Origin: Rhizobium brockwellii
GTDB lineage: Bacteria; Pseudomonadota; Alphaproteobacteria; Rhizobiales; Rhizobiaceae
Assembly: GCF_000769405.2 (NCBI RefSeq)
Contig: NZ_CP053442.1
Span: 1 to 64,000 of the forward strand
Length of the DNA: 64,000 nucleotides
Reading direction: 5' to 3'
The translations under genes and the position numbers were made by a program. The first letter of the stretch is position 1; the number at the start of each line of letters is the position of its first letter. The notes beneath the pieces are model-generated. The model was not told the origin of the DNA. It was given only the letters and a program-made list of their open reading frames with translations, and made no database searches. Of this stretch, positions 3,713 to 37,372 are shown in pieces.

Positions 3713-4361
3713 GGGGAGGGGAGGCGGGTGTCTGCTTCGGCCGAAAATGCCTGCCCGGATGAGGTTCACTTTGGCGGAGCGATTTCCTCCACTGTCGCGG
3801 CCGGCGTCAGGATCGAATGGGCTTTGGGGATGAGAGCGGTGGTTGTCTCTGTCAACTCTATCGTTCAGCGGCCCATCGGTCTCATTAGGCCCGGTGGCTT
3901 CCATCAAGGGGTCCGAAAGCCTTGGAATTTAGTCGACCTTTCATGCGTCAAGGCTGGTTTCCTGGCAAATAATCACTCGTCAATCCTGACGAGCGTCGGT
4001 GGGATCCCAGCGACACGGAAGAGAAGGCAATGCAATGGCGGAAGTAATCTGAGATATAGCTTCTAGTTAACGAGGTGTTTACCATAATTTCAATGTGTTG
4101 TGCATCAACATTATCTCTCACATCATGCGGCGCGGTGGGGATAACGGGTGGCGGATCGTCATTGTTATGATTGACGGTGACAGCGTTGAAGGAATTGTGG
4201 GCGCAGCATCGGCGACGAACGATCCAGACGCAATTGGTCGGCCCAGTAGGTTCCGGCGACCTCATTCGCCATTGCCGTTTCGAACCAAAGCGGCAAGTCC
4301 GTGAAGTGGGGGAGCTCCCTGCGGACTTTTCATCCGAAGCTCAGCCCAAGAGGAACGCAGC
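3713..4361. other. Non-coding stretch, no supportable gene
   Basis: This 649-bp gap after repC has lower GC than its surroundings (notably 4060-4130) and many short open frames on both strands, none with a convincing start, codon bias or recognisable motif. It probably contains decayed sequence upstream of the GH15 remnant. No tRNA, terminator with a T-run, or IS end was recognised. Confidence 0.5.
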
Positions 4362-5372
4362 ATGGATGCAAGTGGCGATTTGATCGAGAATATAGTTGCC
4401 GCCGAACATAGCCAGCTGGACGCAGCCGTCGTTCCGCGCGCGATAGAGAACCACGGCGTCATCGGCGATCGCGCTTGTCGCTACCGATGGCACGATAGAC
4501 TTTCTGTGCTGGCCCGATTTCGACAGTCCGACGATTTTTGCGGCGCTGCTCGAACCGGAGCGTGGTGGCATGTTTCAGCTTGCTCCGGAGCTTGCAGATG
4601 CCCGCGTGACGCAACAGTACCTTCCGGATACAAAGGTATTGCTCACACGTTGAATGGCAAGCGACGAACTCACTGACTTTATGTAAGTGAAGAACAGACG
4701 TAGCGGCGGCTCGAGCATGATCGTCCAGCGCTTTCGTGCGACGCGCGGGAGTTTGAAAGTGCGTATGTCATGCGCTCCTCGGTTCGAATACGCGACGAGA
4801 CAGATCCCAGTGGAATCTGAAGACGGCGCTGTGATCGCAGATGATGACCCTCCAAGCTGGATGTGCTGGGTGGCGGTCGATCGGGGAATTCGCCTCGCGA
4901 CCAGGCGATCCCTCGCAGCGCCCTTTTCCAAGGGCGCATGACATCAGGAACGACATTTACGGAGACATTTGGAAAAATTTCTGGAACGAGGAGAAGGGGC
5001 ACTTTGTGCAGACCAAGAGCGGCGACATGCTACGACGCGTCGCTGCTGCTCATGCCGCTTGTGAGGTTTGTCAGGGCCACGGATCGGAGGTGGCTGTCGA
5101 CCTTGAAGGCGATCGGCGACCAACTGGCGGACGACGGCGTCGAGCACCGGTATCGCAGTAACGACGGCCTTGAGGGGGAGGAGGGCGCCTTTTCAGCCTG
5201 CTCGTTCTGGTATGCCGAGCGTCTTGCACGAGCAGGCGACACCAAGAGAGCCCGCAAGGTCTTTGAGTCAATTCTGAACTATGCCAACCATCTCGGCCTG
5301 TACGCCGAAGAGTTTGATACTAAGGCACAGCTCGCTGGCAATTTCTCCCATTATTATCCAAGCCGTTTGTAG
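4362..5372 (+). pseudogene. Decayed GH15 glycoside hydrolase (glucoamylase/trehalase family)
   Basis: Pieces of one GH15 protein lie in order but in different frames. The ATG at 4362 opens a frame reading ENHGVIGD (near 4450-4470). After a frameshift the other frame reads ALVATDGTIDFLCWPDFDSP then a typical GH15 N-domain up to VLLTR and an in-frame TGA near 4652. A further piece (IVQRFRATRGSLKVRMSCAP) follows at 4719-4780. The C-terminal catalytic-barrel end (DASLLLMPLVRFVRATDRRW, LACSFWYAERLARAGDT-like, LYAEEFD, GNFSHYY) runs to the stop at 5370-5372. GH15 proteins are about 600 residues; only about 320 remain, so a central block of the barrel is deleted. It is non-functional. Confidence 0.85.
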
Positions 5373-5376
5373 CATC

Positions 5377-5414
5377 GACCTCACCTCCGTGGCGCAAGCC
5401 ACGGAGGTGAGGTC
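5377..5414. repeat. Perfect 17-bp inverted repeat with GCAA loop
   Basis: GACCTCACCTCCGTGGC (5377-5393) is the exact complement of 5398-5414, separated by GCAA. As RNA this is a 17-bp hairpin with a GNRA tetraloop. It starts 4 bp after the GH15 remnant stop. There is no T-run, so an ordinary intrinsic terminator is doubtful; a palindromic repeat or processed RNA element is possible. Confidence 0.75.
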
Positions 5415-5612
5415 CCACTTGCTATTCGTCCGCGGTTTGAAAAAGGGAGTCTTTGCGCGAAAAAGAAGCACATCATGCGCTCACCGCATAGCTGAGATGA
5501 GAGATTGTGGCTGTTTTAAACCGATTGAAGCGCCTATATCTCCATCATCGAAACGGCGCCGGAACCAACCAAGGTTGCTGACGTCAGACAGCCCTCATGA
5601 AAGGGGATCATC

Positions 5613-5759
5613 ATGAACGTAGCACGCTCTTTCAACAACTGGCGCAAGTTCCGTCAGACGGTCACCGAACTCGGACGCATGTCCAGCCGTGAACTGCAGG
5701 ACCTCGGCATCGATCGGGCAGACATTCGCAGCGTTGCCCGCGCCTCGATCGCGCGCTAA
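5613..5759 (+). CDS. DUF1127 (YjiS-like) small basic protein, 48 aa
   Basis: This 48-residue basic protein carries the DUF1127 signature: a tryptophan-arginine pair at residues 10-11 (NNWRKFR) and the motif LGRMSSRELQDLGIDRADIR at about 20-39. In Rhodobacter sphaeroides a DUF1127 protein (CcaF1) is an RNA-binding factor encoded with the CCUCCUCCC-motif CcsR small RNAs. Start ATG 5613 follows GAAAGGGGA with good spacing. A CTATAT -10-like element lies at 5534-5539 but I see no clear -35. A terminator follows at 5792, and an sRNA gene with four CCUCCUCCC-type motifs lies about 190 bp downstream, the same pairing as in Rhodobacter. Function here is inferred from that association. Confidence 0.88.
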   Translation: MNVARSFNNWRKFRQTVTELGRMSSRELQDLGIDRADIRSVARASIAR

Positions 5760-5791
5760 CCGCCCAGCACGACTTGAATCCACATCGGTTG

Positions 5792-5818
5792 ATGCCCGCT
5801 CCTAAGGCGGGCATTTTT
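5792..5818 (+). terminator. Intrinsic terminator of the DUF1127 gene
   Basis: TGCCCGC (5793-5799) pairs with GCGGGCA (5807-5813), loop of 7, followed by five T. It lies 33 bp after the DUF1127 stop codon and separates that gene from the downstream small RNA. Confidence 0.85.
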
Positions 5819-5913
5819 GCGTCGAGGGCCGTGCCCGGCGACGTATGGAGCTCCGGTCGTATTGGATTCTTGCGGTTTGCGCCTTACGCATGGCTGCGGT
5901 GCAACATAAGACA

Positions 5914-5941
5914 TTTGCATCGTCCGGGGCCTGTGTATGAT
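5914..5941 (+). promoter_or_regulatory. Candidate promoter of the CCUCCUCCC sRNA
   Basis: TATGAT (5936-5941) is a good -10. The -35 is TTTGCA (5914-5919, 16-bp spacer) or TTGCAT (5915-5920, 15-bp spacer); both spacers are short. This places the start near 5948, just before the first hairpin. Confidence 0.45.
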
Positions 5942-5947
5942 TGTATC

Positions 5948-6103
5948 TGTCGAAGCAATGCACCTCCTCCCGCAAAGCTTCGCTTTCAGCCGGCCCACTT
6001 CTCCTCCCATGGGACGTCTGTAAAAACAGCGGCACTCCTCCTCCCAGTCGCTGTTCGATCTTCAAAAAGCCTGCCGCACCTCCTCCCGCGGCAGGCTTTT
6101 TTT
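5948..6103 (+). ncRNA. Small RNA with four anti-Shine-Dalgarno CCUCCUCCC motifs (alpha-r14/NfeR1- and cuckoo/CcsR-like)
   Basis: A predicted transcript of about 156 nt contains four CUCCUCCC copies: 5963-5971, 6001-6008 (first base of the nine-mer changed), 6037-6045 and 6079-6087. Each lies in a loop. The hairpins are CGAAGC/GCTTCG (5951-5982), a weak CCCA/TGGG (5994-6013), AACAGCG/CGCTGTT (6025-6055), and a terminator with 14-bp arms (6064-6077 and 6088-6101) plus T-run. Rhizobial alpha-r14 sRNAs such as NfeR1 and the Rhodobacter CcsR RNAs share repeated anti-SD loops; these RNAs bind ribosome-binding sites of ABC-transporter and stress mRNAs. Alpha-r14 members are usually described with three hairpins, so four is notable. 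The 5' end is inferred; if transcription starts later, only three motifs are in the RNA. Confidence 0.82.
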
Positions 6104-6314
6104 GTATCAAGCCTCTTCCCGACGCAGATTAAGATCGAGTGCAGCCGTCCCCAACCTCGTCACTCAGCCTGCCGGACTCGGCTGCCCCTGGCACCGGGCC
6201 GGCAGTTCGCTCGAGAGCGATATCCCGCACAGCTACTGCTGGTCTCGGAGGACACGCTGATCCAATACCGGCGCCGATGCCGTCAGTCATCGCATCATAA
6301 GGAGGTGCCGATCG

Positions 6315-7758: not shown

Positions 7759-7913
7759 GATCACTTTTGCGGAAATTGCCGACGTGTCAACGAAAATTCC
7801 TAGTGTTAACGTCACTATGCAAGGTCAGTTTTAGAATGACGCTGCAAAATATTTGCTGAGATCATCAGCGGGCCGCCGCTGCCGGGGAGGGCAGTGGCCG
7901 GGAGGAGAAAGAC

Positions 7914-9083
7914 ATGAAAAATCAAGCCACACTGCTGGTGGTTGCCGCGTGCCTTGCGGCTTCCGCTTCTTATGCCGAGGACTTTCACGGGTTCGATCCG
8001 GCGAAGTTCGACGGCAAGATGCTATCGACCGAAAATCTGAAGGCGATGGTGGTCGATGCGACCAAGGCAACGCCACCGAGAAACGGAAAGAGTTACAGTA
8101 TCGGATTCGCGAACCTGCAGCGCGACATCGCCTTCGGCGTGCTCGTCGAAAAGGGGATCCAGGAAAATGCCGATGCTGCCGGCGTCGACCTCGTGATTGC
8201 GGATAACCGCCTCGACGGGCCGACTGCGCTCGCCAATGCCAAATCCTTTGCAGAGCGCAAGGTTGACTACGTCATCGAATTTCAGACGGACGCCAATTTC
8301 GGGCAGACGGTGATGGATGTGTTCAAACCGGATGGCACAAAGGTCACTGCGATCGACATCCCGATGCCGGGCGCGAGCTTCTTCGGGGTCAACAACCCGA
8401 AATCTGGCTTCATGGGTGGGTCCTATCTCGCAACGGCGGCTGCAAAGAAATTCGGCGCCGATGTCGTGAAGACCGGTTATCTGGTCATCGGCGCTTTACC
8501 GCAGTCGGGCGTCATCCCGCGCATGCGCACGGATGGGCAGCGGGCCGGCTTTATGGCGCTGACCAAGGATTTCCCCGCCGATCATATCATCGAGATCGAT
8601 ACCAAGAACACGCTGCAGGAATCTTTTGCGCAGATGAACAATGTCATCGGTCGCATTCCGCCCGGCGCGCCGATCCTCATCATTGCCATCAACGATCAGG
8701 CAACGATGGGGATGCTGCAGGCCGTGCGGGCTGCCGGTCGCGTCGATCAGGCAATTGCGGTTGGCAATGGGGCAGATGAGGCTGAGGCGCTCGCCACCGA
8801 TCCGAACCTGGTTGCTGCGACCGGTTCATTCCCCGGCAGCTACGGCAATTATCTAATTCCAATCGCGCTCTCCGCACTTGCCGGAAAGCCGGTTCCGGAG
8901 GCGACCTTCGTGACGCACCAAATGGTCACCAAGGCCAATATCTGCAAGTTCTACAAGGAGTTTGCCTGCGCCGGCGAGGCGGATGGATACGTGTTTCCGG
9001 AAGCGGAATTTTCAACCTACCTCGCAGACCTGAAGAAGCAGGATTGGCTGAAGGGCTATGAGGCCATTCTCCCTCAGCAATGA
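7914..9083 (+). CDS. Sugar ABC transporter periplasmic binding protein (RbsB-like, type I)
   Basis: A secreted solute receptor for a CUT2-type sugar importer. Residues 1-21 are a signal peptide (KNQATLLVVAACLAASASYA, cut before EDFHG). The mature part has the periplasmic-binding type I fold pattern: IGFANLQRDIAFGVLVEKGI, LVIADNRLDGPTALANAKSF and the hinge-region AINDQATMGMLQAVRAAG. At 389 residues it is longer than RbsB (about 300), mainly at the termini. ATG 7914 follows GGGAGGAG. It is first in an operon with a double-domain ATPase, a permease and a sugar-isomerase-like protein. The bound sugar cannot be read from sequence; a pentose or deoxyhexose is suggested only by the isomerase. Confidence 0.88.
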   Translation: MKNQATLLVVAACLAASASYAEDFHGFDPAKFDGKMLSTENLKAMVVDATKATPPRNGKSYSIGFANLQRDIAFGVLVEKGIQENADAAGVDLVIADNRLDGPTALANAKSFAERKVDYVIEFQTDANFGQTVMDVFKPDGTKVTAIDIPMPGASFFGVNNPKSGFMGGSYLATAAAKKFGADVVKTGYLVIGALPQSGVIPRMRTDGQRAGFMALTKDFPADHIIEIDTKNTLQESFAQMNNVIGRIPPGAPILIIAINDQATMGMLQAVRAAGRVDQAIAVGNGADEAEALATDPNLVAATGSFPGSYGNYLIPIALSALAGKPVPEATFVTHQMVTKANICKFYKEFACAGEADGYVFPEAEFSTYLADLKKQDWLKGYEAILPQQ

Positions 9084-34407: not shown

Positions 34408-35234
34408 GGTTTTTCTCCTGACGGACTGGAAGCCGGGTCGTCCCGGCGAAGGCCCAGAGAAATGACCGGGCCGTCCCGGTCGGGGCTGAAGATGGAGGGC
34501 GCGCCGGCGAGCCTCGGCGGCCAGATCGAAATATCCTTGGTGATCGTCGCGCCGTAGCGCTCCTTTTCCTCCGGGCGGTCACGCTTGCGCTCGAAGGCGA
34601 CGACCCGCGTCGCTAGCGTGAAGGCTTCGCGCATGTCATGTGTCACCATGACGACGGTCATCTGCGTTTCGTGCCAGAGCCGCTTCATCAATGTGTGGAT
34701 CTCGGCGCGGATGCCGGGATCGAGCGCACCGAAGGGCTCGTCGAGCAGCAGCACCTTCGGCTTCATGATCAGCGCCTGCGCCAGCGCCAGGCGCTGCTGC
34801 ATGCCGCCTGACAGTTGCGCCGGATATTTGTCCTCGGCGCCGGAAAGGCCGACCTCGCCGATCAGTCGCCGCGCTTCGTCGATGGCGTTGCGACGGGCTG
34901 CGCCGAAAAGCTTGGCTTTATAGCGAGACGCCGAGAGTTCCCGCCCAAGCAGCACATTGCCGAGTACGGTCAGATGCGGGAAGACGGAATAGCGCTGGAA
35001 GACGACGCCGCGATCCGGCCCTGGCTCCTGCGGCAGCGCTTTGCCGTCCAGCAGTATGGTCCCTCGCGTTGGCCGCTCCTGGCCGAGCAGCATGCGCAGG
35101 AACGTCGACTTGCCGCAGCCGGACGGGCCGACAAGGGCGACGAAGGCGCGCGAAGCGACGGTCAGCGACACATCTTCGAGTACGATCTGGTCGCCATACT
35201 CTTTCCAGACCTTTTCGATCACCAGTTCGCTCAT
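34404..35234 (-). CDS. ABC transporter ATP-binding protein of the guanidine operon (NitT/TauT type)
   Basis: A 276-residue ATPase of the nitrate/sulfonate/taurine importer class. Walker A is GPSGCGKST (about 36-44), Q-loop GVVFQRYSVFPHLTV, signature LSGGMQQRLALAQALI, Walker B VLLLDEPFGALD and H-loop VMVTHDMREAF. The C-terminal 50 residues are a polar extension. It overlaps the permease stop by 4 bp (35231-35234) and the deiminase start at the other end. Together with the permease and the binding protein it forms the importer of this operon, most simply for guanidine. Confidence 0.9.
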   Translation of the reverse strand: MSELVIEKVWKEYGDQIVLEDVSLTVASRAFVALVGPSGCGKSTFLRMLLGQERPTRGTILLDGKALPQEPGPDRGVVFQRYSVFPHLTVLGNVLLGRELSASRYKAKLFGAARRNAIDEARRLIGEVGLSGAEDKYPAQLSGGMQQRLALAQALIMKPKVLLLDEPFGALDPGIRAEIHTLMKRLWHETQMTVVMVTHDMREAFTLATRVVAFERKRDRPEEKERYGATITKDISIWPPRLAGAPSIFSPDRDGPVISLGLRRDDPASSPSGEKP

Positions 35235-37256: not shown

Positions 37257-37372
37257 TACGAGGTCTCCCGGGCTTTTGTCCCGCCGTGCACCCGGCGGGA
37301 TGTCTCCCCTGCCGGTGGTAGCTCTCGGACCAGCCACGCCTTGCGACGCCGGAACCCTAGCCACCAACTCTG
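37257..37372 (-). promoter_or_regulatory. Guanidine-I riboswitch (ykkC-yxkD class)
   Basis: Reading the minus strand, the leader contains the ykkC consensus blocks in order: GGTGGCTAGGGTTCCGG, then CTGGTCCGAGAGCTACC, then a stem capped by GTGCACGG, and GGGACAAAAGCCCGGGAGAC. These are the conserved guanidine-binding core elements. The aptamer starts essentially at the transcription start predicted from the sigma-54 promoter and precedes the first gene by about 70 nt. It reports free guanidine and normally turns expression on. This supports guanidine, not urea, as the operon's substrate. Confidence 0.93.

Follow-up and report, generated by a model that had tools for sequence, protein, structure and literature searches.

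The ar14 RNA NfeR1 of S. meliloti is described as a 123-nt RNA with three hairpins (PMC10746234), which silences mRNAs by pairing at their translation initiation regions (PMC7143759, PMC10746234). Its promoter is reported to be bound and activated by LsrB and repressed by NtrC (PMC10746234), and only one of the six copies in S. meliloti was reliably detected in Northern blots under the conditions tested there (PMC7143759). Three- and four-hairpin families with CCUCCUCCC in their loops, with several copies per genome and with members in R. leguminosarum, have also been reported (PMC3927594).

Small DUF1127 proteins are the subject of a separate literature. In Rhodobacter, ccaF1 and the RNAs CcsR1-4 are reported to share one promoter and a precursor that is cut by RNase E (PMC10253847, PMC8625941), and CcaF1 of R. 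sphaeroides is described to bind RNA and to promote CcsR maturation; the combination of a short DUF1127 gene and a neighbouring CcsR-like RNA is named 'CIN1 locus' there (PMC10253847). Short DUF1127 proteins of A. tumefaciens are described to bind PhoR, with CcaF1 being able to substitute for them, and for YjiS from Salmonella no RNA binding is reported (PMC12501420). According to further reports VtlR activates three DUF1127 genes in Brucella (PMC12595884) and binds the promoter of atu1667, a homologue of one of them, the published VtlR box being GCAT-N3-TG-N3-T and the VtlR/LsrB circuits being described as diverged among species (PMC7486931). In the literature searched we found no paper joining 'NfeR1' and 'DUF1127'. 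The name CIN1 locus reportedly goes back to Reinkensmeier and Giegerich 2015.

Here we describe a locus that joins these two literatures, rhizobial anti-Shine-Dalgarno (anti-SD) RNAs and DUF1127 small proteins. It lies in a stretch of 64,000 nucleotides from Rhizobium brockwellii (contig NZ_CP053442.1, positions 1 to 64,000), called the window below.

Results and Discussion

Structure of the locus and of the RNA

The gene, the RNA and the elements that surround them are the following:

5486-5498, + strand: VtlR/LsrB-type box GCAT-N3-TG-N3-T of the DUF1127 promoter (motif scan)
5534-5539, + strand: likely -10 element CTATAT of the DUF1127 promoter (by eye; TATAT conserved in 29 aligned upstream regions)
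5613-5759, + strand: DUF1127 gene, 48 aa (open reading frame and Pfam match)
5792-5818, + strand: terminator-like stem-loop with T run 3' of the DUF1127 gene (by eye)
5888-5900, + strand: VtlR/LsrB-type box of the RNA promoter (motif scan)
5936-5941, + strand: likely -10 element TATGAT of the RNA promoter (scanner: TTTGCA, 16 nt, TATGAT; TAT conserved)
5949-6103, + strand: ar14/Cuckoo-type anti-SD RNA with four hairpins (Rfam, alignment, fold, covariation)
5951-5982, + strand: additional 5' hairpin carrying motif 1 (not covered by the Rfam model)
5987-6020, + strand: hairpin 2 (motif at 6001-6008)
6025-6055, + strand: hairpin 3 (motif at 6038-6045)
6064-6103, + strand: hairpin 4 and terminator (motif at 6080-6087)

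A preliminary description of this DNA had noted the gene next to the RNA and had interpreted the pair as a plasmid-borne sponge for ribosome-binding sites with its own maturation protein. The observation is confirmed by our analysis, but the interpretation is only partly supported. The 48-aa gene matches PF06568 with 53.9 bits (curated cut-off 23.3), and the nearest tested relatives of its product are the short DUF1127 proteins of A. tumefaciens. Among 28 relatives the gene is under purifying selection with a dN/dS of ~0.15 (mean dN 0.09, mean dS 0.62; ratio taken over 375 of 378 pairs).

The four proposed anti-SD loops with CTCCTCCC are present on the + strand at 5964-5971, 6001-6008, 6038-6045 and 6080-6087, within one base of their earlier coordinates, and the second motif reads TCTCCTCCC. 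As CTCCTCCC is found six times on both strands of the 64-kb window, whereas 100 shuffles averaged 2.23 and one of them reached six, four motifs within 124 nt are not due to chance. The 5' end of the RNA (~5949) was placed from the -10 element and the conserved leader and the 3' end at the T run. The suggested membership in the ar14/NfeR1 family held in the covariance search, with a match to RF02344 of 103.6 bits (gathering score 58.8, E 5e-18) that spans 5981-6103 and covers the model completely (1-123). The fold of the strand from 5949 to 6106 consists of four hairpins whose loops each carry one motif (-55.3 kcal/mol, z -5.87), a stability that was matched by none of 200 shuffles, and the RNA ends in a stable hairpin followed by a T run, a strong terminator as had been proposed.

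When the four-hairpin structure was placed on 41 relatives, 98.0% of the cells were paired and 21 of 40 pairs showed a two-sided change; neither value was reached in 500 shuffles, and slid partners stayed far below as well. Hairpins 2 to 4 contribute most of this covariation. The 5' hairpin hardly varies (one of its eight counted pairs shows a two-sided change) and is supported mainly by its conservation. It is widespread: an additional CTCCTCC not more than 60 nt upstream was found in 41 of 143 ar14 rows from 25 genomes of the same genus, among the matches listed. The leader hairpin of these four-motif rows is commonly of the type CGAAGC-loop-GCTTCG, and the exact leader pattern occurs in 17 of 199 genomes of the family, from 9 of 109 genera, while the reversed control gave no match. 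The Rfam ar14 model represents a widespread subclass without its first hairpin.

Compared to NfeR1, the window RNA shares the match to the whole covariance model, the CCUCCUCCC loops, the terminator hairpin and an LsrB-type box ahead of a sigma-70 promoter, and differs from the three-hairpin NfeR1 (PMC10746234) in its extra 5' hairpin and the upstream DUF1127 gene. Four consecutive hairpins with CCUCCUCCC in each loop, multiple copies per genome and members in R. leguminosarum are also described for the family RFM SmelA099 (Reinkensmeier et al. 2011, PMC3927594), a likeness judged from the published description. We had considered the four-hairpin form as a novelty and rejected this, the SmelA099 family having been published in 2011. 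In the accessible description of SmelA099 (PMC3927594) we found no mention of DUF1127. The CIN1 locus, as described in a citing paper (PMC10253847), likewise combines the gene of a short DUF1127 protein with an adjacent CcsR-like anti-SD RNA. Families that contain the two halves of the window pair, and also their combination, have been described before.

Linkage of the gene and the RNA

Both ar14 and DUF1127 were searched in 41 genomes and the counts rest on the best 150 matches of each. Seven ar14 matches were outside the genus, and the remaining 143 rows include weak ones under the Rfam cut-off and shifted second matches. A DUF1127 match was listed within 2 kb of 61 of the best 150 ar14 rows, on the same strand in all of them. 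A profile made from these matches, run over the 143 loci, gave the gene upstream in 29 rows and downstream in 26, among the matches listed. All 29 copies with the gene upstream have the four-motif RNA; the fourth motif was found by script in 28 of them and by eye in the 29th (L147), which has the same leader and in which a contig end within the RNA has shifted the match. The association of four motifs with an upstream DUF1127 gene is strong (Fisher p 1.2e-13, 99 rows with three body motifs), to be read as a count over related genomes and non-independent events. Where the gene precedes an RNA with four motifs found by script (28 rows), 182-239 nt separate its stop codon from the Rfam start. The distances of the gene and those of the RNA are correlated (Mantel r 0.445, with none of 2000 permutations as high). 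The proposed link between the gene and the RNA is thus real and conserved. As 13 of 41 four-motif rows had no DUF1127 gene upstream among the matches listed, an adjacent gene is not required by the RNA.

Outside the genus, a script found the DUF1127 gene upstream in 12 of 26 pattern loci, one of them (L184) being partial with two motifs only. Three loci that belong to other families within the order have hairpins with the motif 18-44 nt past the DUF1127 stop codon in an operon-like manner, eight of them in L162. These suggest that co-transcription may be the older state, which would have been split later in Rhizobium, a direction drawn from the three loci.

A second conserved ar14-DUF1127 arrangement is seen in the 26 downstream-linked rows (L002 and similar), in which a chromosomal three-hairpin ar14 RNA is followed by two DUF1127 genes on the same strand that differ in subtype (MNF/MNL/MNI... 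and MNP...). Two single loci show further variants. L162 (about 1000-1500) carries a 77-aa DUF1127 open reading frame followed by eight consecutive hairpin-like repeats with CTCCTCCC, twice the number of CcsR RNAs of Rhodobacter. L161 (about 900-2600), from an AT-rich genome, has four tandem DUF1127 genes, and in three of these a CTCC-type motif and hairpins are found 40-41 nt past the stop codon.

Promoters and transcription units

Ahead of both units we found the box GCAT-N3-TG-N3-T. Among the matches listed it is present upstream of the gene in 28 of 29 regions and upstream of the RNA in 37 of 41, being missing in one and four regions, respectively; the background is ~1% (11 of 1031 windows for the gene and 42 of 3143 for the RNA, drawn from the same loci with coding DNA included). 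The spacing between the box and the -10 element has a single value in 26 of the 28 gene regions and 34 of the 37 RNA regions, and in the window 35 nt separate the box from both CTATAT and TATGAT. When compared to the Brucella 15-mer the gene box of the window has 10 of 15 matches and the RNA box (5887-5901) 12 of 15. At least 12 matches are also found at 48 of 58 three-motif ar14 RNAs but only at 1 of 26 and 0 of 26 DUF1127 genes of the downstream-linked class, and LsrB control is therefore not general for DUF1127 genes. The gene of the window resembles the VtlR/LsrB-controlled DUF1127 genes of Brucella and atu1667 in being short and in having the GCAT-N3-TG-N3-T box before its promoter; in the accessible text of these reports (PMC12595884, PMC7486931) no ar14 RNA is described with those genes. 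In the literature searched we found no report of a matched box pair before a DUF1127 gene and an ar14 RNA, and judged from sequence the matched candidate VtlR/LsrB boxes ahead of both units seem to be what is new here. Such matched promoters predict that one LysR regulator fires both units.

Between the two units lies the terminator-like element at 5792-5818, found by eye and absent from the list of the pattern scanner; a comparable element is visible in the aligned DUF1127-linked rows. Together with the strong terminator of the RNA this agrees with the separate terminators that had been described. The term 'its own maturation protein' is not supported: since a terminator-like element and a second promoter separate the gene from the RNA, no shared precursor needs to be cut. 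The ccaF1-CcsR1-4 locus of R. sphaeroides is alike in that RNAs with this loop motif come after a DUF1127 gene. It differs in having one promoter and RNase E processing, whereas the window pair appears to have two promoters with a terminator-like element between them, and the window protein is shorter (48 aa vs 71 aa for CcaF1). Co-transcription of the ccaF1-CcsR type is thus not indicated at the window locus as far as its sequence goes.

The DUF1127 protein could still play a role in trans on the RNA, and as an alternative it might bind the RNA and control its maturation or turnover together with RNase E, as a ccaF1-CcsR-like system. The RNA binding of CcaF1 and its promotion of CcsR maturation (PMC10253847) point in this direction, as do the operon-like spacing of 18-44 nt at the three loci from other families and the four-hairpin RNA at all 29 DUF1127-upstream copies among the matches listed. 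We nevertheless consider this alternative unlikely, as the terminator-like element and the RNA's own promoter split the units, the gene is missing beside 13 of 41 four-motif RNAs (among the matches listed), the A. tumefaciens proteins are reported to bind PhoR and to be replaced by CcaF1, and no RNA binding is reported for Salmonella YjiS (PMC12501420). The matched promoters also caution against automatically regarding a DUF1127 neighbour as a maturation factor.

Replicon context

The window starts with repABC, and two further RNA elements expected before repC were found there by the Rfam search:

2257-2301, - strand: repABC antisense ctRNA
2343-2410, + strand: S-element

The plasmid pRL9b6 of R. 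leguminosarum bv. trifolii 9B is near-identical (99.8% across the first 12 kb) with the same genes annotated. The linkage to repABC, to which attention had been drawn, is incidental, as two further plasmids of the same genome carry the pair far from repC: on C3, C4 and C7 repC starts at ~2.4 kb and the pairs are located at ~377 kb, ~6 kb and ~38 kb, respectively. With the copies on C3 and C7 being distant, the window copy alone is close to repC. DUF1127 and the ar14 RNA are both multi-copy and spread over several replicons, with nine ar14 and 11 DUF1127 matches in the genome, and at least 80% of the pair as query is covered in 107 of 510 matching records, many of them plasmids. This multiplicity would also fit a linkage that results solely from co-spread among plasmids without a common regulator or function. 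Such an origin is improbable given the same strand and order, the gap of 182-239 nt and the matched boxes in 29 rows (among the matches listed), and linkage was found outside the genus, too.

Between repC and the DUF1127 gene (3713-5612) no gene is annotated on the near-identical plasmid record. This interval may be decayed DNA, as had been assumed, since a GH15 gene is among the features listed under a match to NC_012852.1. The copy number in the genome, the neighbouring interval and the reliable Northern signal for only one of six S. meliloti copies (PMC7143759) could all indicate that the pair is a silent or redundant paralogue, little transcribed beside decaying plasmid DNA. Against this, conservation extends to the boxes, the loops, the terminator, the compensatory pairs and the protein, and the window copy has retained all of them, which makes a silent paralogue very unlikely.

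Proposed function

We therefore favour as the probable reading, based on sequence comparison, a two-transcript cassette under LsrB control in which the RNA would act as an anti-SD repressor and the protein separately in trans. The DUF1127 and ar14 units would each be transcribed from their own sigma-70-type promoter, and the LysR regulator LsrB would most likely switch on both together without co-transcription, since the two promoters have a VtlR/LsrB-type box at equal distance. Most likely the CCUCCUCCC loops of the RNA would pair in trans with purine-rich Shine-Dalgarno sequences and block the translation of several mRNAs, as NfeR1 does, an action suggested by family membership and the exposed loops. 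The DUF1127 protein would most likely have a separate role in trans, either by way of a sensor kinase such as PhoR or by binding RNA, and would not be needed for release of the RNA from a precursor. A sponge had been proposed for the RNA; this does not agree with the published mode of NfeR1, repression at translation initiation regions, and we rejected it as the main mode because NfeR1 pairs with these regions.

Many ABC-transporter genes had been proposed as targets, which agrees with published NfeR1 predictions. We scored 39 start regions from one stretch of the near-identical plasmid record against one loop (39 of 40 genes, repA being left out as it has no upstream sequence in the record). 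ABC-transporter genes were not significantly enriched (p 0.08, 14 ABC vs 25 others). Third in rank was a neighbour of the pair, a gene for a sugar ABC substrate-binding protein (7914-9083), with GGGAGGAG at 7900-7907. We also considered the neighbouring DUF1127 gene as a target of the RNA and rejected it, as its start region ranks 31st of 39 in predicted pairing.

More speculatively, the pair might be a brake on nutrient uptake triggered by LsrB, with two arms that fire together from the matched promoters. The RNA would stop transporter mRNAs from being translated by acting at their Shine-Dalgarno sequences, and the DUF1127 protein would act via sensor kinases such as PhoR to lower uptake signalling. 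In that case the linkage would have outlived a lost ancestral shared transcript because both products act on the same physiology. We regard this extension of the two-transcript cassette as rather doubtful at present.

The Rfam search also found two riboswitches in the window that adjoin urea carboxylase and transporter genes:

37263-37371, - strand: guanidine-I riboswitch
34433-34482, - strand: guanidine-II riboswitch
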